From: a virus
DNA: 44,360 nt
Strand: one strand, 5' to 3'
IMG/VR virus record: IMGVR_UViG_3300042448_003117
Location: 1 to 44,360 of that record
A model generated the notes under the pieces. The model worked only from the letters and a program-made list of their open reading frames with translations. It was not told the origin of the DNA and did no database searches. The translations under genes were made by a program, and so were the position numbers. Positions 5,645 through 44,360 of the stretch are shown here, one piece after another. Position 1 is the stretch's first letter. The number at the start of each line of letters is the position of its first letter.

Positions 5645-7798
5645 TTACCCCCGCACTGTCTCATAAGCGCTGCCACCCCGGCGAATGGCATCCAGCGTCA
5701 TGCTTGATGACTGCCGCGCAATCTGCCCGGCCAAAATGCGCAGCCGCGCCTCCACCCCCGCATCGGCGCCGCGCGCATCAATGGCGATAGAGGTATTGAT
5801 CGTGGTGCCGGCTGGCGCGCTGCCGTTCGGCAGCACCGTGCCGGCCTGGTTCGGCACAAACCATTCCGGGCCGCGTTCGCCAACAATGTAGGGCTGGCCC
5901 GCTGCCACCGGGCCGCCATCGGCGCGGAACAAGCCGCCAATGGCGGTGCCGATATCATTCAGCCAATTCCCCGCGCCAATACTGGAAAGCCCGGCCGAGG
6001 CCGCATTGCCCAAAGGTTCAGTTATGGTGCGCCGGGCGATAATGCGCGTCATGTCCTGCAACAGGCCCTTGAGCACTTCAGACAGCCTGGCGCCGCGCAC
6101 AATCGCGTCCTCAAAGGCCGAGGAAAACGCAAAGCCCAATTCCCGCGCGGCGTCGCGCGTATTTTCCGTGCTGCGCTTGATGCGCTGCTCGGCCTCCTCC
6201 AATTCGCTCAAAGCGCGTTCGCCTTCGCGGGCGATGGTCTCGGTGGGGATGGGGCGGCCAGCGCGCTCGGCACGCTCCGCCAAATCTCCAAGCCGTTCCA
6301 GGCGCCGCTGATAGCGTTCATAGGCATTCTCATTATCCAGGATCAGCCTTTCGCGTTCGCGGAGCAGGTCATTCAACTCGCGTTCCGCCGCGCGATCAGC
6401 GGGCGGGATGGCTGCGACACGGCGGGTGGTGCCCTCAATGCGGCGCAGGGCCTCATCACGTTCTTGCAGCGCCAGGGTTTCAAGCTGGGTGCGATCCGCG
6501 GCGGTGATGCCACCGGCGGCCTCAGCCTCACGCAGGCGGCGGACGCGGTCCTCATATTCGCTATTAATGCGAAAGCGATCATCGAGCGCGCGGCGCAATT
6601 CCTCGGCATCCGCGCCGGCGCGGCGGCGGCGTGCATCGGCGGCCTGGGCGGCGGCGCTTTCCGCCTCGCGCTGCTGCCGTTCGCCGGAGGCCTGTTCGCC
6701 GCGCGTGATTTCCTCCGCGAGTTCCTGATACTGCCGGCGCAATTCCTCCAGCCGGGCGGCGCGGTCCACCCCGGCCTGTTGCTGCGCGGTGCCGACCAGG
6801 CCGCTGCGGATGGTGCCGCGCCGTGGTTCGGTGGGCAGGCTTTGGCCTTCGATTTCAGCCTCAAGCCGCGCGATTTGCGCGCGCAGTGCCGTAGCCTCTG
6901 CCCGGCGCGCGGCCTCCTGCTCGGTGGGCAGCAAAAGGCCGGAGCCACGCCGCACGCCATCCAGCACGCGCGCCGCGCCGGATAGCGCCTGGGCCAGCGT
7001 ATTGGAAAGGCCGATGGCCTGATCCAGCCGGGCGAGGAATTGATCCGTTGCGACGGTCAACTGCCCAAAGGCACGCCCCACCGAAAGCGGCGCGCGTTCG
7101 AATTCGCCATTCAGCTTTTCAACCGCACCCAGCAGCGCGGGAAACACCGTATCGGCGGTGAGTTTGCCCTCGGAGCCGAGCTTGCGGAGTTCACCGATGG
7201 AAACGCCAAGCTCGCGCGCCAGCGCCTGCGCCAGGGTGGGCAGGCCTTCCAGGATGGAGCGCAGTTCATCGCCTTGCAGCGTGCCCGAGGCAAGGGCCTG
7301 GGCCAGCTGCTGGGTGGCGGAGGAGATTTCCTGTTGCGAGGCGCCCGAGGCAATGGCGATGCGCTGCAAGCCGCCAACCAGAGTTGCGACCTGATCCGAG
7401 GTGGCGCCGATCTCCCGCGCGGCGATGGAAAACCGCGCGAAGGCGTCCACGCTTTCACGCACCGCGACGCCGGTTTGCAGGCTATCCTGATAGAGCCGGT
7501 CATAGATCTCCCCGGCGCGTTCCACCGAACCGAGCGCGGTATTCAGCCGGCCCATGGATTGCGTCAGCGCATCGCCGGCGATCACCACCGCGCGCAGCCC
7601 GGCAGCCAAGCCCGCGATCTGCACGCCGCGCACGGCGACATCCAGCAAATCCAGCGCGCGGGAGGCACGTTCCGCGCCGCCCTGGATGCGCGCGAGGGAG
7701 CGTTGGCCGGTTTCACCAACCTCACGCAATTCCTGTTTTACGCGCGCGGCGTCGTCCAAGGACAGGCGCACCGAGACGCGGCGGGTGGCGTCAGCCAT
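5645..7798 (-). CDS. Tail tape measure protein
   Basis: A 717-aa protein. Residues of about 60-280 match the conserved tape-measure domain (TIGR02675 type): an Ala-rich helical region with 'GAGD/LTQSMGRLNTALGS', 'DAFARFSIAAREIGATSDQV', 'LQGDELRSILEGLPTLAQALA' and 'VSIGELRKLGSEGKLTADTVFPALL'. Residues of about 310-560 are strongly charged coiled coil (Arg/Glu repeats). The C-terminus has the Gly-rich 'GGLFRADGGPVAAGQPYIVGE' tail found in many such proteins. It sets tail length and is ejected with DNA. It starts at an ATG overlapping the end of the T frame. Being only 717 aa, it predicts a fairly short tail. Confidence 0.93.
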   Translation of the reverse strand: MADATRRVSVRLSLDDAARVKQELREVGETGQRSLARIQGGAERASRALDLLDVAVRGVQIAGLAAGLRAVVIAGDALTQSMGRLNTALGSVERAGEIYDRLYQDSLQTGVAVRESVDAFARFSIAAREIGATSDQVATLVGGLQRIAIASGASQQEISSATQQLAQALASGTLQGDELRSILEGLPTLAQALARELGVSIGELRKLGSEGKLTADTVFPALLGAVEKLNGEFERAPLSVGRAFGQLTVATDQFLARLDQAIGLSNTLAQALSGAARVLDGVRRGSGLLLPTEQEAARRAEATALRAQIARLEAEIEGQSLPTEPRRGTIRSGLVGTAQQQAGVDRAARLEELRRQYQELAEEITRGEQASGERQQREAESAAAQAADARRRRAGADAEELRRALDDRFRINSEYEDRVRRLREAEAAGGITAADRTQLETLALQERDEALRRIEGTTRRVAAIPPADRAAERELNDLLRERERLILDNENAYERYQRRLERLGDLAERAERAGRPIPTETIAREGERALSELEEAEQRIKRSTENTRDAARELGFAFSSAFEDAIVRGARLSEVLKGLLQDMTRIIARRTITEPLGNAASAGLSSIGAGNWLNDIGTAIGGLFRADGGPVAAGQPYIVGERGPEWFVPNQAGTVLPNGSAPAGTTINTSIAIDARGADAGVEARLRILAGQIARQSSSMTLDAIRRGGSAYETVRG

Positions 7799-8117
7799 GG
7801 GGCGTTTCCTCCCTGCCGCGTGTGGCGATGCCTTCTGACATGCCGATGCGCAGTGCCATCAGCATTTCCGAAGCAGCCCAGCCCTGCGCGCCGAGATCAC
7901 GCGCGGCGGCAAGCGCATTGGCGATATTGAGCGTAATGCCGGCCATGCTGGCCTCAGCGCAGGCGGTGCCGGCGGCCCAGCAGGCATGGGCCTCGACGCT
8001 GAGCGGTGCGTGTGCCGTGTAGGGGCAGCTATCGCCGCAATCGCGCGCGATGGCCGCGCAGCCGCGACAATATTCGGGCCCGCTGCCGAAATGCCATGCG
8101 GCGCGGGCCCTTAGCCG
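7791..8117 (-). CDS. Tail assembly chaperone T domain, made by -1 frameshift as a G-T fusion
   Basis: A 108-codon open frame that continues from the G gene in the -1 frame and has no start codon with a ribosome site near its beginning. It runs to a TGA overlapping the tape-measure ATG, exactly where lambda T lies. The deduced G-T fusion is about 232 aa (124 codons of G plus 108 of T). The T part is unusually cysteine-rich in its first half (YCRGCAAIARDCGDSC, then two more Cys) and helical afterwards (NIANALAAARDLGAQGW), so metal binding is possible. By analogy with lambda gpGT, it would coat the tape measure and recruit tail-tube protein. It is invisible to a start-codon-based gene caller. 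Confidence 0.8.
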   Translation of the reverse strand, partial: RLRARAAWHFGSGPEYCRGCAAIARDCGDSCPYTAHAPLSVEAHACWAAGTACAEASMAGITLNIANALAAARDLGAQGWAASEMLMALRIGMSEGIATRGREETPHG

Positions 8118-24781: not shown

Positions 24782-26040
24782 CTATTGGTTGCGCGTGCTG
24801 CAGTGATATCCGCGAAGGTTCGGTCCTCGCCATCCAGTATCGCGGGCTGGCCCGTCATGGCCTCAAACCGCGCAATCGTCACATCGCAATAGCCGGGATC
24901 AATTTCCATCGCATAGCAGATGCGCTCGGCAGTCTCGGCCGCGATGATCGCCGTGCCGCTACCGCAGAAGGGTTCGTAGATCACATCGCCGGGTTCGCTA
25001 TTGTTCAGCATCGGGCGGCGCATGCATTCCACCGGCTTCTGCGTGCCATGCACCGTTGCCATATCCTCGGGACCGGCGCCGATCGGCCAAAGTGTCGTCT
25101 GGTCGCGCGCGCCTTGCCAATGACCGGTGGCACCCTTGCGGACACCATAAATGCACGGCTCATGCTGCCAGTGATAATCGCCACGCCCGAGCACAAGGCG
25201 CGGCTTGGCCCAGACGATCTGGCTGCGAACGACAAAGCCTGCGGCCTCCAGGCTTTCGATCACCGTGCGCGCATGCACGCCGGCATGCCAGATGTAGGCC
25301 ACATCGCCGGGGAACAGCGCCCAGGCTTCGCGCCAATCGGCGCGGTCATCATTGGCAACCTTGCCCGTGCGCGCGGTGGACGAGACGCCAGCCTCGTTGC
25401 GCCAGGCGGGATCGTAGCCAACCCCGTAGGGCGGGTCGCTCACCATCAAATGCGGCTTCGCGCCACCGAGCAGGCGGAGAACATCGGCGCGATTGGTGGC
25501 GTCGCCACAGAGCAGCCGATGGCGACCAAGGCGCCAGAGATCGCCGGGTCGCGTGACTGGCTGCGCGGGTGGTTCCGGCGCCGGTGCGTCCGGATCACCT
25601 TGCGCGGGCGCGTCACCATTGGCGTCGATGCTGGCCAGCAAATCCTCAAGCGCTTCGGCGGAAAAGCCAAGCACGTCCAAATCCACCGAGGCATCATCAC
25701 GGATGCGCGCGATCTCAGCCGCGAGCAGTGCCTCGTCCCAGCCGGAATTGAGCGCAATTTGATTATCCGCAAGCCGCAACGCACGTGCCTGAGGCTCGGT
25801 GAGATGGGCGAGCCGAATAGCAGGCACGCTGGCCATCCCAAGCCGCTTGGCCGCCATGACGCGGCCATGGCCTGCGACCAGAACACCCGCGCCATCCACC
25901 AGCACCGGGTTCACAAAGCCGAATTCGGCGATCGATGCAGCAATCTGCGCTACCTGCGCTGGCGAATGCGTGCGCGCATTTTCGGCATAAGGCACCAGCG
26001 CCGCCACAGGCAGCGATACAACGGCAAGCTCAGGCTGCAT
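24775..26040 (-). CDS. ParB-domain/DNA methyltransferase fusion (DPPY type)
   Basis: A 421-aa protein from ATG 26040, overlapping the end of the previous methyltransferase gene. Residues of about 5-95 are a ParB/Srx-like domain ('YAENARTHSPAQVAQIAASIAEFGFVNPVLVD', 'VAGHGRVMAAKRLG'). Residues of about 165-415 are an N4/N6-amino-methyltransferase (PF01555): catalytic DPPYG at 202-206 and SAM-binding 'EPFCGSGTAIIAAE' near the C-terminus, i.e. beta-type motif order. It methylates adenine or cytosine amino groups in phage and perhaps host DNA. No restriction enzyme is adjacent, so it is an orphan methylase, typically anti-restriction. The second such enzyme lies immediately upstream. Confidence 0.9.
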   Translation of the reverse strand: MQPELAVVSLPVAALVPYAENARTHSPAQVAQIAASIAEFGFVNPVLVDGAGVLVAGHGRVMAAKRLGMASVPAIRLAHLTEPQARALRLADNQIALNSGWDEALLAAEIARIRDDASVDLDVLGFSAEALEDLLASIDANGDAPAQGDPDAPAPEPPAQPVTRPGDLWRLGRHRLLCGDATNRADVLRLLGGAKPHLMVSDPPYGVGYDPAWRNEAGVSSTARTGKVANDDRADWREAWALFPGDVAYIWHAGVHARTVIESLEAAGFVVRSQIVWAKPRLVLGRGDYHWQHEPCIYGVRKGATGHWQGARDQTTLWPIGAGPEDMATVHGTQKPVECMRRPMLNNSEPGDVIYEPFCGSGTAIIAAETAERICYAMEIDPGYCDVTIARFEAMTGQPAILDGEDRTFADITAARATNRS

Positions 26041-27481
26041 GGGCAACCTCCGCCCGCGCTGCTGCTACCGCATCGAAATCGCGCCCTTCGCCCGCAAGTG
26101 TCACCGGCTGATCAGGATACAGCATTCGCCAGCGCGCAATCGCCAAATCTACATAGGCCGGCGCCAATTCAATGCCGCGCACAACGCGGCCCGTGCGTTC
26201 GCCGGCAATCAGCGTCGTGCCGCTGCCGGCAAAGGGCTCAAACACCACCTCGCCAGCCTCGGTGTAGGCGCGCATCAGGAAATCCGGCAGTGCCACCGGA
26301 AACACCGCCGGATGCTCCGTCTCAATCCCGCGCCCCTTATGGCGTGTGATACGCAGCACCGCGTCAGGAATGCGCATGTCCTGCACCGGCTGGCCGATAT
26401 GCGTGTAGGCCTTCACCTCGCCATCGGCGGCGCGCAGCCCACTGCCCTTATTTGGCGTACCGGCCCATTTGCAGGGGATGATCTTGTTAGCTTGCCGCGC
26501 TGTCCGGTTGAAGTGAAACACGAGTTCGAAGGCCGGGGCTAAACGCCCGTTCCAATCGCCCGGCAATCCCGGCCCCTGGTCCCAGGTATAGAGGCCAAAG
26601 CGGCGCCAGCCACGCGCGCGCATCCATTCCAGCCAACCCTGCCAATAGGGCAGCCATTCATTCTCGCGATGGATCAGGCCAAGATTGACCAGTGCTTGAC
26701 CATCCGGCCGCAGCGCTGCGTCCAGATGCTGGAACACGCCCTGCATGAGCGCATCCCAATCGGAAACACCGCCGGTCGTGTAATCGCGCTGGTTCCCATA
26801 GGGCGGCGAGGTGAACAGCATCGCGGCGCGATCGCTTTCCATCACGCGCGCCACCGTGGCTGCGTCGGTAGAATCACCGCACAAGAGCCGATGCGCGCCC
26901 AGCAACCACAAATCGCCTGGGCGAGAGACCGCCTGGCGCGGTGCCTCAGGTTCAGCATCGGCAGGGTCGTCGGCATCTTCGGCAATTGCCGGCGCGGCAG
27001 GGTTCTCGGCGGTGTGTGCGGGCAGGGCTTCGGGCGCATCGCCGTCGGACACGGCCTCTCCAGCCGCCGCGAGGATGCCCGCAAGTTCATCCGCCGAGAA
27101 ACCGAGCGCAGCCAGGTCAATCTCCGCCGCCTGGACGCTGGCCAAAGCATCTCGCAGCAGCGCCTGGTCCCATGTTGCGTTCTCTGCGATGCGATTATCG
27201 GCAAGCCGCAGCGCTTCCTTTTGCGCGGGCGCGAGGTGCTTCAGCACAATCACCGGCACCTTGGCGATGCCGAGCGCTTCCGCCGCCGCCAAGCGGCCAT
27301 GGCCCGCGATCACCACGCTATCCTCGTCCACCAGCAGCGGGTTGGTGAAGCCGAAGGCCTGCATGCTGGCCATGATCTGCGCGAGCTGCGCTGCGTCGTG
27401 CACGCGCGCATTGCCTGCATGCGGGCGCAGCGAAGCGATAGCGCGGAGTTGGATCCGCTCGGCCATCCAGGGAAGCGTCAT
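26030..27481 (-). CDS. ParB-domain/DNA methyltransferase fusion (SPPY type)
   Basis: A 483-aa protein. ParB-like N-terminus ('HAGNARVHDAAQLAQIMASMQAFGFTNPLLVD', 'VIAGHGRLAAAEALG', residues of about 20-75), an acidic Ala/Pro linker (about 140-185), then a methyltransferase with TSPPYG (225-229) and a later 'FEPFAGSGTTLIAGERTGR'. The SPPY catalytic motif is usual for N4-cytosine and some N6-adenine enzymes, so it likely has a different base or site from the DPPY enzyme downstream, with which it overlaps by 11 nt. No strong ribosome site is visible before the ATG. The upstream gap holds a cluster of GGTGCAAACC sites. Confidence 0.9.
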   Translation of the reverse strand: MTLPWMAERIQLRAIASLRPHAGNARVHDAAQLAQIMASMQAFGFTNPLLVDEDSVVIAGHGRLAAAEALGIAKVPVIVLKHLAPAQKEALRLADNRIAENATWDQALLRDALASVQAAEIDLAALGFSADELAGILAAAGEAVSDGDAPEALPAHTAENPAAPAIAEDADDPADAEPEAPRQAVSRPGDLWLLGAHRLLCGDSTDAATVARVMESDRAAMLFTSPPYGNQRDYTTGGVSDWDALMQGVFQHLDAALRPDGQALVNLGLIHRENEWLPYWQGWLEWMRARGWRRFGLYTWDQGPGLPGDWNGRLAPAFELVFHFNRTARQANKIIPCKWAGTPNKGSGLRAADGEVKAYTHIGQPVQDMRIPDAVLRITRHKGRGIETEHPAVFPVALPDFLMRAYTEAGEVVFEPFAGSGTTLIAGERTGRVVRGIELAPAYVDLAIARWRMLYPDQPVTLAGEGRDFDAVAAARAEVAHAA

Positions 27482-28041: not shown

Positions 28042-29016
28042 ATGCTTAGTCGTCGATCCATTGTCGCTTTGCTGACGGGTACCTCTGCCCTTACCTCGCC
28101 GAGCTTTGCTCGCGCTCAAAGCTTCCCAAGCCGCCCAGTGCGTATCATTGCCCCTTACCCGCCAGGTGGCGGAATCGACACGGTCGCACGTCTGATCGCC
28201 GGTCCGATGTCTGAGGTTCTTGGGCAGTCAGTTGTGGTGGAGAACCGCGCTGGAGCTGGTGGTTCGATCGGTGCTGCCGCTGCCGCACAGGCTCAGCCCG
28301 ATGGGCATACGCTTCTTCTCGATGCCTTGGGGCACGTGATCAATCCGCTTTTGATCCGTGATTTATCCTTCGATTACGCGCGCGCCTTTGCCCCTGTCTC
28401 GTTGGTCGTGAGCCAACCGATCATTGTTGTCTGCAATCCAAACTTACCTATGCGTTCGCTCGCACAGCTGCTCGAGCGCCTGAAGCAGCCCGGCGCAGAT
28501 TTTTCATATGGCTCGTCGGGCAATGGAACGGGCCCTCACATCGCGGCTGAAAGCCTGCTTCGGCAAGCGGGCGTTCGCGCTACTCACGTGCCGTATCGCG
28601 GTGCTGCACCAGCGTTGCAGGACGTGATGTCTGGCAACCTAGCATTCGCAGTCGTGACTGCGGGTTCGACGGTCGCGCTTGCCCGTGAAGGAAAGGTCAT
28701 ACCCCTTGGCATACTGAGCTCGGAACGAATGGCATCTCTGCCAGATGTTCCCACAGCCAACGAAGGGGCGGTGCCAGGCTTTGTTTTTCAGGAGTGGAAT
28801 GGTTTGTTTGTTCCGGCCGGTACGCCTGAAGGCGCTATAGCGCGGCTTCATCAAGCGGCGCAGCATGCCGTAAACCAACAAGCGGTGCGTGATCGTCTTG
28901 CGACACTTGGTGCTGTGCCAGTGGGCTCGTCGCCGGGTGCGTTTGCCAGCTTTCTATCCGCGCAAAGGGAGACCATTGCGCGGACGGTGGCCGCTGCGGG
29001 TATCACTGGAAGCTGA
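28042..29016 (+). CDS. Bug-family (TctC-like) periplasmic solute-binding protein
   Basis: A 324-aa protein. The N-terminus is a signal peptide (MLSRRSIVALLTGTSAL... ARAQ, cleavage likely after FARA), including a twin-arginine-like RR. The mature part shows the Bug signature: 'FPSRPVRIIAPYPPGGGIDTVARLIAGPMSEVLGQSVVVENRAGAGGSIG', 'YGSSGNGTGPHIAAE', 'HVPYRGAAPALQDVMSGNL' and 'LPDVPTANEG'. These receptors bind small carboxylates or similar solutes for tripartite tricarboxylate transporters; many are orphans. No TctA/TctB membrane partner is present. A full-length, intact member inside a prophage, on the opposite strand to its neighbours, indicates cargo acquired from a host chromosome. Confidence 0.9.
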   Translation: MLSRRSIVALLTGTSALTSPSFARAQSFPSRPVRIIAPYPPGGGIDTVARLIAGPMSEVLGQSVVVENRAGAGGSIGAAAAAQAQPDGHTLLLDALGHVINPLLIRDLSFDYARAFAPVSLVVSQPIIVVCNPNLPMRSLAQLLERLKQPGADFSYGSSGNGTGPHIAAESLLRQAGVRATHVPYRGAAPALQDVMSGNLAFAVVTAGSTVALAREGKVIPLGILSSERMASLPDVPTANEGAVPGFVFQEWNGLFVPAGTPEGAIARLHQAAQHAVNQQAVRDRLATLGAVPVGSSPGAFASFLSAQRETIARTVAAAGITGS

Positions 29017-38051: not shown

Positions 38052-38843
38052 TCAGTTCCCTGTTTCTTGGGTGGGGATGACGGAGGCGCTTGGCGCTGCC
38101 GCGTAAAAGGGAATGCCGGCAGCAAGATCGGCCCAAGCGAGAGGGATGGTCTCCTCAAGCCCGAAGCGGTTCTTGGCGAGAAAGGCCGGGCGTTCGATCG
38201 TATGCAGCAGCCGATCGCCACCACTCACGCCGCGCACCACCTTCTTGTTAAAGCCGACATCGGATTTCAGCGTGCTGACGCGATAATTCGCGAACAGCAC
38301 GCCATCGACATGCTCCTGCACCAGAGCAGAGGCACCCTTGTGCAGCTTTGGCTGATAGCGGTCGTAAGGCTCTGTCTCCGGGCTATCAAAGCGCCGGATT
38401 TCTGCATGCGCGATCAGTAGAACGCCCATGCCGCATTCATCGCGGAGTGTATTCACCGCATCCAGAAAGGTCCGCCAGGTATCCAGCGCGGCCTGATAGC
38501 CCTTGCCATAGCCGAAGGCTTCAATATCGCGCTGATTGTGCTGCTGCGCTGTGTGCTGCCAGATCAGCGGTTCCAGCCAATCAAGGCTATCAATGACGAG
38601 CGTCTGGAACTCATGCGCTTCGGAATAGAGGCTACCCAGCGCTTCCATGACGGCGTCAAAGTTGCGCAGCAGCCCAAAGGTTGCGGCATCAATGCGCCCG
38701 AAGCCGTCCTCGGTTTGCAGAAAGATCGGGTTCGGCGCATCCGCGGCAAGCTTCGTTTTGCCGACGCCGGCAACACCATAGATCAGCAGGCGTGGGGGAC
38801 GCGTGTCCCCACCACGACGGAGTGATGCGAGTGAGATAGCCAT
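38052..38843 (-). CDS. Sak4-like AAA/RecA-core ATPase (phage nucleotide-binding protein)
   Basis: A 263-aa protein from ATG 38843, which has AAGGAGG 8 nt upstream (the long frame from 39071 overlaps other small genes and is rejected). Walker A 'LIYGVAGVGKTKLAAD' at about residues 20-35, 'IFLQTEDGFGRID', Walker B 'FQTLVIDSLDWLEPLI' and 'MGVLLIAHAEIRRF' are the AAA_24 / Sak4 pattern. Sak4 proteins are RecA-like single-strand annealing recombinases that work with a partner SSB. The start overlaps the stop of the 58-aa gene upstream. Confidence 0.88.
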   Translation of the reverse strand: MAISLASLRRGGDTRPPRLLIYGVAGVGKTKLAADAPNPIFLQTEDGFGRIDAATFGLLRNFDAVMEALGSLYSEAHEFQTLVIDSLDWLEPLIWQHTAQQHNQRDIEAFGYGKGYQAALDTWRTFLDAVNTLRDECGMGVLLIAHAEIRRFDSPETEPYDRYQPKLHKGASALVQEHVDGVLFANYRVSTLKSDVGFNKKVVRGVSGGDRLLHTIERPAFLAKNRFGLEETIPLAWADLAAGIPFYAAAPSASVIPTQETGN

Positions 38844-39019
38844 TACGCGGCCTCCTTCGCTTCGAGGGCGTAGGAGGCGCGGCCCGTGGCCATCTCGCGC
38901 AACTGCGCCGGTTGGGTGCGATTGCTCATGTGTGTCTCGTTGGAATGGGTGATGTCCGGCTCTGGCTTGCATGGCGACGGCCGGACGGGCGTTGCCATTT
39001 TCATGGGGTTGGGCGTCAT
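38843..39019 (-). CDS. 58-aa microprotein, translationally coupled
   Basis: A 58-codon ORF whose ATG overlaps the stop of the 42-aa gene (ATGA) and whose TAA overlaps the ATPase ATG (TAATG). Two more in-frame ATGs (residues 6, 8) and one at residue 31 exist. The C-terminal part 'LREMATGRASYALEAKEAA' is helical. No family recognised. Overlaps at both ends support that it is translated, at least to couple downstream genes. Confidence 0.5.
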   Translation of the reverse strand: MTPNPMKMATPVRPSPCKPEPDITHSNETHMSNRTQPAQLREMATGRASYALEAKEAA

Positions 39020-39144
39020 GGCAGCACCAGCAGTTCCGCGATCCAGCAGAGCGCGATGAAACCGCCGGCAAAGACAGCGCCGATGGAGAGGCTGCGCAGC
39101 AAGTGGCCGAGGCGACGGAGCCGACGCATGGAACGGCGCGTCAT
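39016..39144 (-). CDS. 42-aa single-span membrane microprotein
   Basis: Begins at an ATG overlapping the nuclease stop (ATGA) and ends overlapping the next ATG. An Arg-rich N-terminus (MTRRSMRRLRRLGHLLRS) is followed by a hydrophobic span 'IGAVFAGGFIALCWIAELLVLP'. That is the topology of a cytoplasmic-anchored inner-membrane peptide. Function unknown; it may be a membrane effector or simply serve translational coupling. Confidence 0.55.
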   Translation of the reverse strand: MTRRSMRRLRRLGHLLRSLSIGAVFAGGFIALCWIAELLVLP

Positions 39145-39491
39145 GACTTCACCTGCGGTGGCGGCAGGCCGCGACCAATCAGTTCCAGCCAGACATGCAG
39201 CGGCACGACCACGAGCGGTGCGGCACGGTCGCGCCAGAGAAACAGCGCATCATGCGTGCCGAGCCAGCGCTCCAGCGTCTTGAAGCCCTCGCCGTCACCG
39301 CGGGCTTTGACTTCGGCGACCAGCGGCGGTTCGGCCGCGCCGCGCGCATAGATGTCGATGTCGGCACCATTGCCGCGATAGTGCGTGGCACCGGATAGCG
39401 GGACACGCTCGGCGGCGATGCCGCTTTGCTTGTGGATCTCCACCAGCGCGCGTTCGCGCCGGAGGCCCTTGTCGCGAGAGGCTTTACCCAT
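39141..39491 (-). CDS. PD-(D/E)XK nuclease, Holliday-junction-resolvase-like
   Basis: A 116-aa protein from ATG 39491; ATG 39503 is an alternative. 'SRDKGLRRERALVEIHKQSGIAAERVPLSGATHYRGNGADIDIY' followed by 'LVAEVKARG' gives the E...D...E-V-K active site of archaeal-type resolvases and related putative PDDEXK endonucleases. 'FKTLERWLGTHDALFLWRD' is the following helix-strand. It would process recombination or replication intermediates. Its start overlaps the HTH gene's end. Confidence 0.8.
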   Translation of the reverse strand: MGKASRDKGLRRERALVEIHKQSGIAAERVPLSGATHYRGNGADIDIYARGAAEPPLVAEVKARGDGEGFKTLERWLGTHDALFLWRDRAAPLVVVPLHVWLELIGRGLPPPQVKS

Positions 39492-39702
39492 GACGCGCAC
39501 CATCTGATGGAGCGGTAGCGCCGGTTGCCTCACGGACTTTCGCTTGCTCAAAAGCGTGAATATCTTCAAGCCGGTAGGCCACGCGGCCGCCCAGTTTCAG
39601 GAACAGGGGGCCCTGACCCAGCCACCGCCAACGCTCGAGTGTGCGGGGGCTTACATTCCAGCGAAGCGCCAGATCATTCTGATTCAAATGCCGCGTAGTC
39701 AT
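39484..39702 (-). CDS. Small HTH protein, AlpA/excisionase-like
   Basis: A 72-aa protein with AAGGAGG 6-7 nt before the ATG. 'LNQNDLALRWNVSPRTLERWRWLGQGPLFLKLGGRVAYRLEDIHAFEQ' is a MerR-type winged helix as in AlpA and Xis proteins. It is the first gene of the early operon, just past the terminator of the accessory pair. It may act as excisionase for the serine recombinase or as an early regulator. Confidence 0.8.
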   Translation of the reverse strand: MTTRHLNQNDLALRWNVSPRTLERWRWLGQGPLFLKLGGRVAYRLEDIHAFEQAKVREATGATAPSDGARHG

Positions 39703-39804
39703 TCGGACCTCCTTCGGCTGCCGAGCAACCGTGAGGGAACCTTGCCTGACCAGGTGGAAGGAGCAGGGAAGGAGGAAGGAAGGAGAAACGGAAGGAGAGC
39801 GTCA

Positions 39805-39836
39805 AAAATGAAAAAGCCGCCTCAAGGGCGGCTTTC
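39805..39836 (-). terminator. Rho-independent terminator of the accessory gene pair
   Basis: On the minus strand AAAGCCGCC (39835-39827) pairs with GGCGGCTTT (39821-39813) around a 5-nt loop and is followed by T-rich sequence (TTCATTTTT). It lies 20 nt after the stop of the 311-aa gene and isolates that transcript from the early phage operon. Confidence 0.85.
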
Positions 39837-39856
39837 GGATAGGGGAAGAGCGTGGA

Positions 39857-40792
39857 TCAGAACTCAATCCAGCAGTTTCCGGCCTTTTCTTTTATGAATT
39901 TGTGCCAATCCGCATTTTTGCTGAAGGCTCTAGCCAGGGAGTTGGTCTTGCCACGCGCTCCAGCATCTTCCAGCACCTGGGAGGTCCGACACACCGCATC
40001 GTTCCGATTATATGCATCCACTAGGATTTTCAGAATTTGGCGGTGCAAATCACCTCGGAAAATGAAGGTCTGATGCCCGATGCGGATTTGCCCATAGTCC
40101 GCTGAATGGCCAATCGGCTTTAGCTGGGACGCTGGTACCATTTTCATGCGCTTGGCGAGAATGATAGGATCAACGCTGATGCTCGCCGCAGCTTCGCCTA
40201 CGTCCCGTAAGGCCACGATCATATGGCCCGGTAAATCCACATCCAAAGCATCTGTGGTTGACGTGATGATAACACGCATACCGACTGCCGGGCGCCTCAA
40301 TGCTAATGCCTCAAGGCTTTTCAAATGCTCCGAGTCAAAAAGCCTTCGAGCAAACCAAACAGATACCGGTTGCCCGCGGCTTTCCAGCTTCACTGAACCA
40401 AGATCCCAGGCTACCTCTGGTATCAACACCTCATCACGCTGCGCTGAACCGCGTTCACAGCGTACAAGAAGCTGCGAAAAGAATATGGGCATCGTCACTT
40501 TGTAGAAAGCAAGGTCTTCTGCTGGTACGGCGGACCATTGGCCCGAACGAGTGAAATAGCCATAGGATTCCTGCTCAGCCGACCACTCCACCCGCACCGG
40601 GTCGTCCTCATAATCATCCATCACAGAAAATATGTCAGTCTGGCCGGTACTCAATAAGAGTTTGGATTCGACCAGCCTCCTGCCAGCTTCGCCGAAGCTG
40701 GCGTGCATCACCGCGCCACTAATCCTACCGGATTTGGTCTCCAGGATTCGCAAAAGCAGATCGACTGCGCCCTTATGTGCGATCAGCGCCAC
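39857..40792 (-). CDS. Hypothetical protein, accessory pair gene 2
   Basis: A 311-aa protein starting at GTG 40792, inside the end of the upstream gene (20-nt overlap). I recognise no named domain over most of it. The N-terminal 200 residues are mixed alpha/beta. The last 80 residues ('YGQIRIGHQTFIFRGDLHRQILKILVDAY', 'SQVLEDAGARGKTNSLARAF') resemble a winged-helix output or DNA-binding domain: strand, helix, helix, wing. There is no signal peptide or membrane span. Overlap with gene 1 implies equimolar, coupled expression and probably a complex. Followed by a strong terminator. Confidence 0.7.
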   Translation of the reverse strand: MALIAHKGAVDLLLRILETKSGRISGAVMHASFGEAGRRLVESKLLLSTGQTDIFSVMDDYEDDPVRVEWSAEQESYGYFTRSGQWSAVPAEDLAFYKVTMPIFFSQLLVRCERGSAQRDEVLIPEVAWDLGSVKLESRGQPVSVWFARRLFDSEHLKSLEALALRRPAVGMRVIITSTTDALDVDLPGHMIVALRDVGEAAASISVDPIILAKRMKMVPASQLKPIGHSADYGQIRIGHQTFIFRGDLHRQILKILVDAYNRNDAVCRTSQVLEDAGARGKTNSLARAFSKNADWHKFIKEKAGNCWIEF

Positions 40793-41981
40793 TAGTGTCC
40801 GCTCCGCCCTTCAAAATACCCCATTCACGAAGGTATTTTTCTCCAATCAGTCGCTCTCCTGCTGTCATCCCCTTCAGATTGCAGCCGTTTGGTACGGTGA
40901 TCATCAAGCTGAGGGTCTTCGCGCGGCGCGATCTTCCATGAGGTACAAATTTAACCACGAGGCGCGCGCGCGTGATGGTCCAGTCAGCACGTCGCAAAGC
41001 TACCGGTCCGATATGCCGATCTGCCATTTCCCAGATCGTTTCACCATCATTCTCGCTGCATTCCAACGTGACCCGCTGGCTTGGCCGATCCAATGCTTGA
41101 AATCGGAGTTCCCTTATATTTACTGAATCTATTCTTTGCTCGATAGGTGCACTTGCGTCGGTCGCAAAGACAAAGGGCTCGACCAATACACTGAGGTCAT
41201 ACTCGCGCGCAGCGATCTTTTCACCCCGGAAAGGAATGCCCAATAGATGATGCCCCATGAGGCCAGCCAAAGACTCGCGGATATTCTTATCGCTCGCGAT
41301 GACTTCAAGCACGCCGTCTGATGGCTCGTAGGTGATGCAGGCCTCATAGACCGGCTTTACGATGCGGCGATGCAGCTTTCCGTTCCCATCGAACCCCAGA
41401 GCATCATCGGGACTACCTTCGCGATAAATCGCAACCTGGACCAGCTGATGGGTGGCGCCATCGAAAGTTACGCGGTGGCGATCGAAAACATCCACATGGA
41501 CCTTATCCGTGCCAAACTTGGCCCTGATCGCGGCGGTGAAAGCATCGATTGAGAGCTGATCTTTACGAATAAGCTTTTGTCTTTCGACGACATAGCCTGA
41601 CCACATTCTGCCACGTCGCCTCTCGTCATTGTATCTGACCTCCTCGGCCAGCTGAAACGCACGGGGCTCATGCATGAGCATCCAGAGGGCGCGGTTATGC
41701 CCCCCTGCCACCAAGTCAAACTGACGGCGATTCTGAACGACATCCAGCAGGGCGTTCTGCCCAGGCTCGTCAGCGAGAGCGATGATCCGCCCAACTTCTA
41801 GGATCAATGCCTCGCGGTCCGCTTCTGCCAATGAATCAAGCGCAGCAATCAGGGCCGAGGCGACATCACTTTCGGACTCTGTCCAAACAACCGAGGGGGG
41901 AAGGTTGAAGGATTTGGTTTCAAAATAGGCCTGAAGGCTTGGCACAGGGGTTTTGCGAAAAAACGACGTAATTGTTGCCAT
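40773..41981 (-). CDS. Hypothetical protein, accessory pair gene 1
   Basis: A 402-aa soluble protein I cannot assign. The N-terminal half is helical with 'ADREALILEVGRIIALADEPGQNALLDVV' and 'RALWMLMHEPRAFQLAEEVRYNDERRRGRMWSGY'. The C-terminal half is beta-rich with 'LVQVAIYREGSPDDALGFD' and 'ACITYEPSDGVLEVIASD', ending in a compact motif 'NGCNLKGMTAGERLIGEKYLREWGIL'. The wording of these segments looks conserved, i.e. like a real family rather than random coding. It is the first of two genes between the integration module and the early operon, the typical niche of prophage defence loci. No nuclease, NADase or kinase motif is evident. Confidence 0.7.
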   Translation of the reverse strand: MATITSFFRKTPVPSLQAYFETKSFNLPPSVVWTESESDVASALIAALDSLAEADREALILEVGRIIALADEPGQNALLDVVQNRRQFDLVAGGHNRALWMLMHEPRAFQLAEEVRYNDERRRGRMWSGYVVERQKLIRKDQLSIDAFTAAIRAKFGTDKVHVDVFDRHRVTFDGATHQLVQVAIYREGSPDDALGFDGNGKLHRRIVKPVYEACITYEPSDGVLEVIASDKNIRESLAGLMGHHLLGIPFRGEKIAAREYDLSVLVEPFVFATDASAPIEQRIDSVNIRELRFQALDRPSQRVTLECSENDGETIWEMADRHIGPVALRRADWTITRARLVVKFVPHGRSRRAKTLSLMITVPNGCNLKGMTAGERLIGEKYLREWGILKGGADTSGADRT

Positions 41982-42295
41982 ACAAAGCCCTTTCTCGATC
42001 GGGGGGGAGGGACAATCGCAATATAGAACAGACCAAGAACACGGAAAAGAGGAAAAACCGGTATTTCTACCAGCCGTTGTGCTGGAGCATTCGATGCATT
42101 GAGCTTAATGGGACCCGAATCGACGTCTCAAAATTGAACCAACCAAACCACTCAAAGACAGAGAAACGTCGGTTTGCAGGATTTCGCAGCCCTTCGCAGC
42201 AGTTGCTAATTTTTCTCAAGCTGTTGTTTTTACTTGTTTTTACTCGACGCCTACCGCATCTCTCGGCCAACCGCCCCCAATCGCGAACGGTCTCA
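41982..42295. other. Divergent intergenic region between accessory pair and integration module
   Basis: 314 bp without a credible gene. It is A/T-richer than the surroundings and must carry promoters for the minus-strand accessory pair and the plus-strand recombinase genes. Visible items: a -10-like TATATT toward the accessory pair (around 42022), the direct repeat TTCGCAGC at 42183-42190 and 42193-42200, and the tandem TTGTTTTTAC at 42224-42243. An attachment or recombination site could also reside here. Confidence 0.5.
42224..42243 (+). repeat. Tandem 10-bp repeat TTGTTTTTAC
   Basis: Two exact adjacent copies, TTGTTTTTAC at 42224-42233 and 42234-42243, 52 nt before the first gene of the integration module. 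The phasing of about one helical turn suits a dimeric regulator or the recombinase itself; the A/T content also suits a promoter. Confidence 0.6.
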
Positions 42296-42520
42296 ATGCG
42301 CAACGCTCTCTCCGGCCCCAATCCCCTACCTGCCGAGTGCCTCTCCGGACCGGAGCGCCTGGATGAAGTTGCGCACATCCTAGCCGCCGGCCTGAGGCGA
42401 ATTCAGGCTCAGGACGCAAGTTCTTTATCTGCCGAAAACAGAGAAAGTTCATTCGACATTCTCGCCTTCAAACGCCGTGTTGGTCGTCGCAAACCAACCA
42501 TTCGCGTCGGAGAAAGTTGA
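42296..42520 (+). CDS. 74-aa protein of the recombinase operon
   Basis: Starts at ATG 42296 and stops at TGA overlapping the next ATG. 'ERLDEVAHILAAGLRRIQAQDASSLSAENRESSFDIL' is a pattern I recall from short proteins encoded directly before DUF2924 genes in alphaproteobacteria. Function unknown; it may be a recombinase accessory or directionality factor, which is a hypothesis from the conserved neighbourhood. The open frame extends upstream to 41972 but without support. Confidence 0.7.
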   Translation: MRNALSGPNPLPAECLSGPERLDEVAHILAAGLRRIQAQDASSLSAENRESSFDILAFKRRVGRRKPTIRVGES

Positions 42521-43026
42521 TGTCAGCACTGAAGAAAAAACCTGAAGCAGAACCAGTTCGAATGAACGCCGGCCCCAGTGATGCCAGCGTCGTCGCGCAG
42601 CTGACAGCGCTGCGGAGAATGAGCGTGGTCGAACTCAAGCAAAGATGGGAAACGCTCTTTGGCACGCCTGCGCCGAACAATAGCCGAAGCTACCTGGAAG
42701 TGCGCCTCGGCAATCGCATCCAGGAACTCATGCTGGGCGGGCTTTCGCGCGACACGCGCCGCGTGCTCGATCTGCTGGTCAAGGAGCTTGAAGGCAAGAA
42801 TACCCGAAAGGCGATCATGACCGACCCGCGCAAGCCCATCCCCGGCACGCGCCTGCTGCGCGAATGGGAGGGCGCCGAGCATAGTGTGACAGTGCTGCGC
42901 GACGGCTTCGATTGGCAGGGCAGGAGATTCAAATCGCTCTCGGCCGTCGCGCGCGCCATCACCGGCACGCAATGGAACGGCTATCGCTTTTTCGGCCTGC
43001 GTGAGGCCGGGCGGGATCCACGATGA
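42520..43026 (+). CDS. DUF2924 protein, recombinase partner
   Basis: A 168-aa protein from ATG 42520 (the TTG at 42517 is unnecessary). 'LTALRRMSVVELKQRWETLFGTPAPNNSRSYLEVRLGNRIQEL' and the C-terminal 'PGTRLLREWEGAEHSVTVLRDGFDWQGRRFKSLSAVARAITGTQWNGYRFFGL' are the DUF2924 signature; the second part resembles a DNA-binding RAMA-type domain. The gene overlaps the recombinase start by 4 nt (ATGA), as is usual for this pair. It may assist site selection. Confidence 0.9.
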   Translation: MSALKKKPEAEPVRMNAGPSDASVVAQLTALRRMSVVELKQRWETLFGTPAPNNSRSYLEVRLGNRIQELMLGGLSRDTRRVLDLLVKELEGKNTRKAIMTDPRKPIPGTRLLREWEGAEHSVTVLRDGFDWQGRRFKSLSAVARAITGTQWNGYRFFGLREAGRDPR

Positions 43027-44360
43027 ACCGCGCACCAGGATCCACATTGCAGATACCGCGGCGCCTGCGCTGTGCCATCTACACGCGTAAGTCGAGCGAA
43101 GAAGGGCTCGACATGGAATTCAACTCCCTCGATGCGCAGCGCGAAGCCTGCGAGGCCTATATCGCGAGCCAACGCTCAGAAGGCTGGGCCGCCATTCGCG
43201 AGCCCTATGATGATGGCGGTGTTTCTGGCGGTACGCTGGAACGCCCCGCGTTGCAGCGCCTGCTGGCCGATGTCGAAGCCGGGCTGATTGATGTGATCGT
43301 GGTCTATAAGATTGACCGGCTGTCACGCTCGCTGATGGATTTCGCCAGGCTGGTCGAGATTTTCGATCGCAACCAGGTCACCTTCGTTTCCGTCACGCAA
43401 TCCTTCAATACCACCACCAGCATGGGGCGGCTCACGCTCAACATCCTGCTGTCCTTCGCGCAATTTGAGCGTGAGGTGATTGGCGAGCGCATTCGCGACA
43501 AATTCGCGGCCTCTCGCAAGCGGGGCATGTGGATGGGCGGCTATGTGCCGCTGGGCTATGACGTGCGCGACCGCAAGCTTCTGGTGAATGAGGCCGAAGC
43601 CGCGACGGTGCGGATGATTTTCAAGCGCTTCGTGGCCATCGGGTCCGCCACCAAACTCGCCAAGGCGCTGGTGTCGGAAAGCGTACGCACCAAGTCCGGC
43701 AGGCCGGTCGACAAGGGCTATATCTATCGGCTGCTGAATAGCCGGGTCTATCTGGGCGAGGCCACGCATAAGGACGCTTCCTACCCCGGCGAGCATGCGC
43801 CGATCATTGACCGCAGCCTGTGGGACAAGGTGCACAGCATTCTCCAAACTAGCCCGCGGCTGCGTGCCGCCAATGCCAGGGCGCGCACGCCGGCCTTGCT
43901 GAAGGGGCTGATCTTTACGGAGACCGGCTGCGCCATGACGCCTGCTTTCACCAAGAAGGGCACTCGGCTGTATCGCTACTATGTTTCGATGGATGTGATC
44001 CGCAACCGGGCGCTGGACGAAAACCCTGGCCCTCTGCGGCTGCCGGCACCCATGGTGGAGGACGCGGTGATTGGCGAAATCCACCGCATGATCCGCGCCC
44101 CCGAAATCACCGCCCGCACCATTGCCGCGCTGCGCCACGAAGGCGCGGCAGTGGAGGAGGCCGCCGTGGTCGCAGCCCTTGCCGGGTTTGAGCGGCTTTG
44201 GGGCGCGCTGTACCCGGCCGAGCAGGCGCGCATCGTCCAATTGCTGGTCGAGCGCATCACTGTCAGCACCAATGGCATCGCGGTTGATCTGCGCAAGGAA
44301 GGGCTCGGCCTGGTCCTGCGGGACATGCTGCTGCCCGCGAAAGAGGACGCCTTTGCATGA
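43023..44360 (+). CDS. Serine recombinase / integrase
   Basis: A complete 445-aa protein. The resolvase catalytic domain begins 'RCAIYTRKSSEEGLDMEFNSLDAQ' with nucleophile Ser24. Further conserved parts are 'DDGGVSGGTLERPALQRLL', 'DVIVVYKIDRLSRSLMDF', and 'LTLNILLSFAQFEREVIGERIRDKF' (long E helix). A recombinase domain follows ('GYVPLGYDVRDRKLLVNEAEA'), with a helical C-terminus. It catalyses site-specific integration and excision through a phosphoserine intermediate. It is somewhat shorter than many large serine integrases. It is on the plus strand, at the outer edge, and is the only integrase in the window. Confidence 0.92.
   Translation: MNRAPGSTLQIPRRLRCAIYTRKSSEEGLDMEFNSLDAQREACEAYIASQRSEGWAAIREPYDDGGVSGGTLERPALQRLLADVEAGLIDVIVVYKIDRLSRSLMDFARLVEIFDRNQVTFVSVTQSFNTTTSMGRLTLNILLSFAQFEREVIGERIRDKFAASRKRGMWMGGYVPLGYDVRDRKLLVNEAEAATVRMIFKRFVAIGSATKLAKALVSESVRTKSGRPVDKGYIYRLLNSRVYLGEATHKDASYPGEHAPIIDRSLWDKVHSILQTSPRLRAANARARTPALLKGLIFTETGCAMTPAFTKKGTRLYRYYVSMDVIRNRALDENPGPLRLPAPMVEDAVIGEIHRMIRAPEITARTIAALRHEGAAVEEAAVVAALAGFERLWGALYPAEQARIVQLLVERITVSTNGIAVDLRKEGLGLVLRDMLLPAKEDAFA

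Follow-up and report, generated by a model that had tools for sequence, protein, structure and literature searches.

Lambda RexA, an immunity-region protein of the RdgC/IML3/CHL4 fold group (PDB 8twq), is a DNA-binding protein that excludes T4rII and tips the switch towards lysis (PMC11077077). CapH and CapP are known controllers of immune operons: CapP senses single-stranded DNA, whereupon the CapH+CapP pair derepresses adjacent operons (PMC13373217). Gifsy phages encode the LexA-controlled antirepressors GfoA and GfhA (PMC3121763), and the LexA motif of Alphaproteobacteria is GTTC-N7-GTTC (PMC3323433). Regulators of the OmpR/PhoB family use direct repeats at 11 bp as sites, often three to five in the case of ArcA (PMC3798270). 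Here we compare a two-gene phage locus, A-B, with these systems. Judged from sequence, A-B is rather likely to be a DNA-damage-controlled lysis/lysogeny element that turns on the early operon via iterons.

A and B lie within 44,360 nt of DNA that were analysed as a whole (the window; IMG/VR virus record IMGVR_UViG_3300042448_003117). Since it carries terminase, portal, head, tail, primase and other phage genes, the window represents a phage or prophage. The features of the locus are listed in Table 1. The original prediction, made from the letters alone, had described a self-contained, A/T-rich unit of two overlapping genes with its own terminator, located between the recombinase module and the early genes, and all of these points were borne out, including gene lengths, overlap and the GTG start of B. 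The G+C content is 0.542 in A and 0.530 in B, whereas the window has 0.624 overall and the early genes and recombinase have 0.63. The terminator, a hairpin followed by a T-run, is conserved as well: one was found within 130 nt of B in 62 of 112 homologous B genes versus 5 of 560 shuffles. Two elements had been missed, namely the iteron array and the LexA-box match. Elsewhere in the window, a lone gene for a TctC-family solute-binding receptor (28042-29016, + strand; PF03401, E 2.9e-55) lies mid-phage on the strand opposite to the structural genes and is probably host-derived cargo, while one protein (26030-27481, - strand) combines a ParB-like nuclease/partition domain with a DNA methyltransferase (phrog_620, phrog_498).

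Table 1. Features of the A-B locus and its surroundings (window coordinates)
Feature	Position	Strand	Remarks
Sak4-like ssDNA-annealing protein	38052..39071	-	early operon; phrog_124, AAA_24
AlpA-like small HTH gene	39484..39702	-	first early-operon gene, downstream of the iterons; also present behind the slot in related phages
Iteron array	39756..39797	-	four copies of CTCCTTCC (read on - strand), spaced 11-12 bp, starting at 39756, 39767, 39778 and 39790; predicted B site
Intrinsic terminator	39805..39836	-	3' of B; hairpin and T-run
Gene B	39857..40792	-	311 aa, GTG start; 20-nt overlap with A; obligate partner of A
C-terminal winged-helix domain of B	39860..40102	-	residues ~231-311; predicted, OmpR/PhoB-like
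Predicted recognition helix of B	39917..39949	-	residues ~282-292, KTNSLARAFSK; covaries with iteron class
Gene A	40773..41981	-	402 aa, ATG start; helical N-terminal domain ~1-122, then predicted RdgC/CENP-N-L-like alpha/beta part
GTTCTTGGTCTGTTC	42026..42040	-	exact LexA-motif match (GTTC-N7-GTTC), 45-59 nt upstream of A
DUF2924-like gene	42517..43026	+	flanks immunity region; name as annotated in a relative
Recombinase/integrase	43023..44360	+	flanks immunity region; relatives annotated 'recombinase family protein'

The two genes form a real and inseparable pair. Of 163 loci, 160 have B after A, and the reading frames overlap in nearly every one; the three exceptions are two copies of A at contig ends and one short contig. 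Furthermore, two distant homologues are single-gene A-B fusions of 721 and 724 aa (L212, L219). Based on this pairing, the fusions and the conserved terminator, A-B is one functional and transcriptional unit, which supports the earlier view of a co-transcribed two-protein phage unit with a DNA-binding-type second protein. A Roseicitreum plasmid protein (L014, 8899-10152) matches A weakly and best over its N-terminal half; the C-terminus of this protein is unrelated to A and no B was found alongside.

Iterated searches found 87 viral loci and 151 loci in species genomes, of which 80 each were kept, the latter nearly all from Alphaproteobacteria. The sole family match of A is phrog_37634 (E 2.7e-77), whose function is unknown, and neither A nor B belongs to a Pfam, NCBIfam or PADLOC family, although PADLOC was searched at E <= 10. 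That A bears no catalytic family signature, as stated originally, was confirmed by these and by PHROG-type profile searches. PDB sequence searches with A and B delivered nothing useful, while tblastn of A gave one match against plasmids and none against phage records. The family is common (A is present in 32 of 398 genomes of a phylum-wide sample, and 80 of the 87 viral loci were fetched) yet nameless.

Protein A is predicted to adopt the RdgC/CENP-N-L fold, which is also that of lambda RexA. With its AlphaFold model (pLDDT 87), the best PDB structural matches obtained by Foldseek were CENP-N, CENP-L and RdgC. The RdgC match reached an E-value of 2.4e-3 and a prob of 0.96 in the PDB and a prob of up to 1.00 for phage RdgC models, and several RdgC proteins of phages are among the top named matches in BFVD. 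The TM-scores of these fold matches are low (0.2-0.4), and the RexA structure 8twq was not among the 50 structural matches of A listed. Profile comparison of A by hhalign gave a probability of 0.1% for RdgC, with no match to PF04381, and of 0.3% for lambda RexA, while RdgC and RexA are equally undetectable to each other (0.1%). Because of the low TM-scores and the negative profile comparison, the likeness of A to RdgC and RexA is a fold-level lead only. The AlphaFold model of protein B (pLDDT 88) points to an OmpR/PhoB-like winged helix at the C-terminus, which agrees with the winged-helix-like domain proposed before. Its fold matches belong to the OmpR/PhoB family, each being weak alone (E 0.05 or more). 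The same domain also ends p229, a protein of the CI-type relatives discussed below (hhalign 98.7%, E 1.6e-16 for the p229 family).

The slot occupied by A-B is the immunity region of the phage and not a cargo slot. Its usual order is recombinase, DUF2924 and, in most relatives, an ImmA/IrrE protease and an XRE repressor, then across a gap A, B, the terminator, the AlpA-like gene and the early recombination/replication operon. We surveyed phages with this backbone, gathered via DUF2924 and not via A, and the slot was intact in 59 of them. It held A-B plus a CapP-type gene in 24 phages, A-B without such a gene in 8, an S24 CI-type repressor plus the ~229-aa protein p229 in 17, the S24 repressor alone in 1 and neither in 9. 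An S24 CI-type repressor was found alongside A-B in none of the 32 A-B phages (dereplicated Fisher p 1.5e-5). By this survey, A-B shows what is expected of a switch: it sits in the immunity region and is exclusive with the CI-type repressor module. The phage L256 illustrates the exchange. It is almost a twin of the phage in the window (identities: recombinase 79%, nuclease 97%, Sak4 89%, helicase 95%, primase 97%), but in place of A-B it carries an S24 CI repressor together with a Cro-like gene. Consequently, ordinary cargo beside a repressor was rejected as an explanation of A-B, since the pair was never seen together with CI. Of the 'defence-island position' claimed at the outset, the location stands, while cargo of a defence slot is not supported, given this exclusivity and the iterons before the early operon. 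Other contents of the slot were also noticed. In L256, a gene judged by eye to be sulfatase-modifying-factor-like (7354-8106) adjoins the CI repressor within the immunity region, and two phages without A-B and CI (L262, L273) carry another unnamed module, a pair of genes for 620 aa and 262-278 aa.

The iteron array separates the A-B terminator from the early operon. At least three iteron copies at 10-12 bp spacing are present in 63 of 111 loci versus 4 of 555 shuffles, so that ~43% of the A-B loci are without three clean iterons by this spacing test. The period is exactly 11 in 48 loci and in 0 shuffled ones, while other periods gave 0 or 1. Arrays also occur in 16 of 17 p229 phages (2 of 170 shuffles), yet their sequences differ from those of the A-B arrays, and L256, being without A-B, has no CTCCTTCC iterons. 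If pairs of B proteins with 70-90% identity outside the predicted recognition helix are compared, the helix identity is 0.95 for pairs with the same iteron and 0.39 for pairs with different iterons. The partial correlation between helix and iteron is 0.52 against a permutation maximum of 0.15, whereby phylogeny is not fully removable in this test. Covariation peaks at B residues 280-292 and fades almost to zero at the C-terminus, the end that is physically nearer to the iterons. Since residues nearer to the iterons covary less, linkage alone does not explain the covariation, and mere physical linkage was rejected as its cause. On a Candidatus Tenderia plasmid, the gap after B contains four CACACC iterons (0 of 500 shuffles), a class shared with the phages L021 and L023, whose B helix resembles that of the plasmid B. 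Because the plasmid pair has iterons of the L021/L023 class in front of a Bub-like operon, iterons follow B and not the downstream genes.

This last point bears on the idea that A-B is a replication-initiation complex, with the iterons as phage origin, B as iteron-binding initiator and A as DNA clamp, beside the helicase and primase genes. We regard it as quite unlikely. While the iterons of the phages adjoin the replication/recombination operon and the RdgC-like fold is tied to replication restart (PMC11077077), those of the Tenderia plasmid precede a ubiquitin-like operon instead of replication genes. In addition, the iterons are about as far from the first early gene as a promoter would be, and the locus alternates with CI/Cro-type switches.

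The region upstream of A suggests how the pair might be controlled. In most relatives, the ImmA/IrrE protease and the XRE repressor before A match CapP (E 2.2e-56) and CapH (E 2.1e-28), respectively, as determined by PADLOC for representatives. A CapP-type gene is present in 135 of 163 A loci and, after dereplication, in 13 of 14 A loci versus 0 of 19 non-A loci (p 2.4e-8). The gap between CapH and A is short (median 63 bp) and carries a CapH-like palindrome, TTCGRTATATATCGAA. Such palindromes were located near the A start in 68 of the 163 loci, whereas 2.3 Mb of sequence yielded just 5 at other places. Given this clustering near A, the target of CapH appears to be A-B and not the early operon. 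Candidate CapH sites after B from a loose TTCG-N8-CGAA search were dropped, since they coincide in part with the ribosome-binding site of the gene that follows, and no words of note are common to the region upstream of A and the gap after B.

In the window, no CapH, CapP, XRE2 or ImmA2 homologue of the kinds found in relatives was detected. Upstream of A it contains GTTCTTGGTCTGTTC, its only GTTC-N7-GTTC match, with 0.85 matches expected by chance in 44 kb; the match is therefore notable only through its position and its conservation in two relatives, L101 and L031, which are both without CapH/CapP and have the same box in the same place. Going by the relatives, the host should belong to the Alphaproteobacteria. 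Among the 135 CapP-containing loci, only 1 has a LexA-box match at the A promoter. Two further A loci without CapH/CapP, L175 and L006, have no LexA-box match either, and in L028 and L030 a fused XRE-ImmA protein takes the place of CapH/CapP. Since LexA box, CapH/CapP and fused XRE-ImmA alternate at A-B, different damage sensors appear to be wired to one output. The GTTC-N7-GTTC motif was also found in 10 of 17 gaps between p229 and S24, where no convincing palindromic operators were seen. In four loci, the divergent p229-S24 promoter region comprises the DnaA-box-like TTATCCACA and repeated ATCCACA words.

One might take A-B itself for the repressor or a Cro-like negative regulator, whose B would sit on the iterons, block early transcription and keep lysogeny: the pair occupies the place of the repressor, and the window is devoid of CapH, CapP or any other XRE/ImmA homologue of the relatives' kinds. 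We nevertheless consider this very unlikely. Most relatives have CapH in that role, and the A-B promoter bears the operator or box of damage-sensitive repressors, which implies production at induction, so that A-B would be poorly timed as a lysogenic repressor. Should A-B indeed be made only after LexA or CapH has gone, activation would suit it better than repression.

The survey of homologue neighbourhoods that had been proposed to check a defence role placed A-B beside recombinase and DUF2924 genes, replacing the CI module, and revealed some links to defence as well. On the Candidatus Tenderia plasmid (CP013100.1; locus L006, 1700-5418 and 8989-13670), A-B precedes a Bub-like operon of the type Multi_ubiq-JAB-ThiF. 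Nearby are a DUF499 gene and another gene with a weak likeness to PglZ, and the region looks like a defence island. A constant link to Multi_ubiq/E1/JAB genes was not observed, as the Bub-like operon was seen only beside this copy; A-B as a constant part of a Bub system was rejected on the basis of this single case. In eight loci, B is immediately followed by AbiEii on the other strand, in some of them together with AbiEi. A prophage-expressed pair for anti-phage defence or superinfection exclusion, for example RexAB-like and under damage-responsive control, would accommodate these neighbours (the Bub-like operon and the PglZ/DUF499-type genes on the plasmid, the AbiEii/AbiEi genes elsewhere). 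It would likewise suit the CapH/CapP matches beside A-B, these being known immune-operon controllers (PMC13373217), and the fold class shared with RexA, which acts in exclusion and is encoded in the immunity region of lambda (PMC11077077). However, A and B have no PADLOC match, A-B replaces the CI module instead of accompanying it, and a pure effector is not expected to show early-operon iterons that covary with the B helix. Thus we judge defence as the main function to be unlikely. Exclusion may still be a side activity of A-B, by analogy to lambda RexAB.

Because A-B sits at the repressor site of its relatives and the sequence evidence points to a damage-controlled, iteron-reading pair, it is most likely a sleep-or-wake switch and not a passenger defence system. 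The computational support consists of the inseparability of the pair, its immunity-region position, the exclusivity with CI, the iterons, their covariation with the B helix and the operator or LexA-box match at the A promoter. We envision the following scenario. In the lysogen, a damage-sensitive repressor would hold the A-B promoter off, here most likely host LexA and in most relatives CapH. DNA damage would remove this repressor, either by self-cleavage of LexA or by the CapP protease cutting CapH, and A-B would then be made from its own short transcription unit. B might dock with its OmpR/PhoB-like winged helix on the 11-bp iterons that immediately precede the early operon, while A, with its predicted RdgC/RexA fold, might clamp or bend the DNA together with B. 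Both proteins would thereby switch on the early operon, which comprises AlpA, a Holliday-junction nuclease, Sak4, SSB, an exonuclease, a helicase and a primase. The inferred parts of this scenario are that A and B form a physical complex, that A binds DNA, and that the pair is damage-induced and acts by activation instead of repression. The original prediction of a 'two-component sensor/effector or defence pair' came near to such a regulator pair, while its cargo in a defence slot is not supported. A lysogeny regulator, which it had set against its own reading, is approached by position and proposed mechanism, with no family match.

A-B is real and coherent, ordinary in its place as a phage switch and unusual in its parts. 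Tentatively, and with some doubt, one might go further and regard it as a portable control module that is new in kind, in which a bacterial/phage relative of the CENP-N/CENP-L/RdgC fold teams up with a winged-helix protein that reads iterons. Via interchangeable sensors (LexA, CapH/CapP, a second XRE/ImmA pair or a fused XRE-ImmA protein), it would be wired to damage, serve as phage induction switch and, outside phages, control a ubiquitin-like immune-type operon. If the switch reading favoured above is right, a large group of alphaproteobacterial temperate phages would possess a second type of immunity region, a code would exist between the recognition helix of B and the iteron sequence, the puzzling fold of RexA would have a wider role in phage switches, and one output module would be plugged into different damage sensors. 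It would also caution that CapH/CapP beside unknown genes need not signal defence.

Compared to RexA, A is encoded in the same region of temperate phages, the immunity region, and both proteins belong to two-gene units. IML3 and CHL4 of RexA's fold class RdgC/IML3/CHL4 are orthologous to CENP-L and CENP-N, which together with RdgC are the best structural matches of the A model. In contrast, a sequence relationship to RexA is undetectable, and the helical N-terminal domain of A is an addition. Whereas RexB is a membrane protein, B is a soluble one with a winged helix, and in most relatives A-B and the repressor gene point away from each other, while RexAB is co-transcribed with its repressor. 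With RdgC (PF04381), a bacterial recombination-associated DNA-binding protein, A shares structural matches; RdgC is normally chromosomal and has no B-like partner. B resembles OmpR/PhoB regulators such as PhoB and ArcA in the modelled winged-helix C-terminus and the predicted 11-bp direct-repeat sites, but no receiver domain was found in B and its N-terminal part is unrelated. A-B shares with CapK/CapS the two-gene layout, the winged helix at the C-terminus of the second protein and, in one plasmid, a place before a Bub-like operon, yet neither a GHKL nor a STAS domain was found in A-B. While CapH+CapP, CapK+CapS and CapW are controllers of immune operons, A-B appears to be the controlled operon behind CapH/CapP. 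Finally, as with the Gifsy antirepressors GfoA and GfhA, a phage gene under a LexA box would couple host damage to induction, which is putative for A-B. GfoA and GfhA, however, are small, bind the repressor and lie outside the immunity region, whereas the A-B proteins are large, are predicted to bind DNA as a pair at predicted sites of their own and are encoded within that region.
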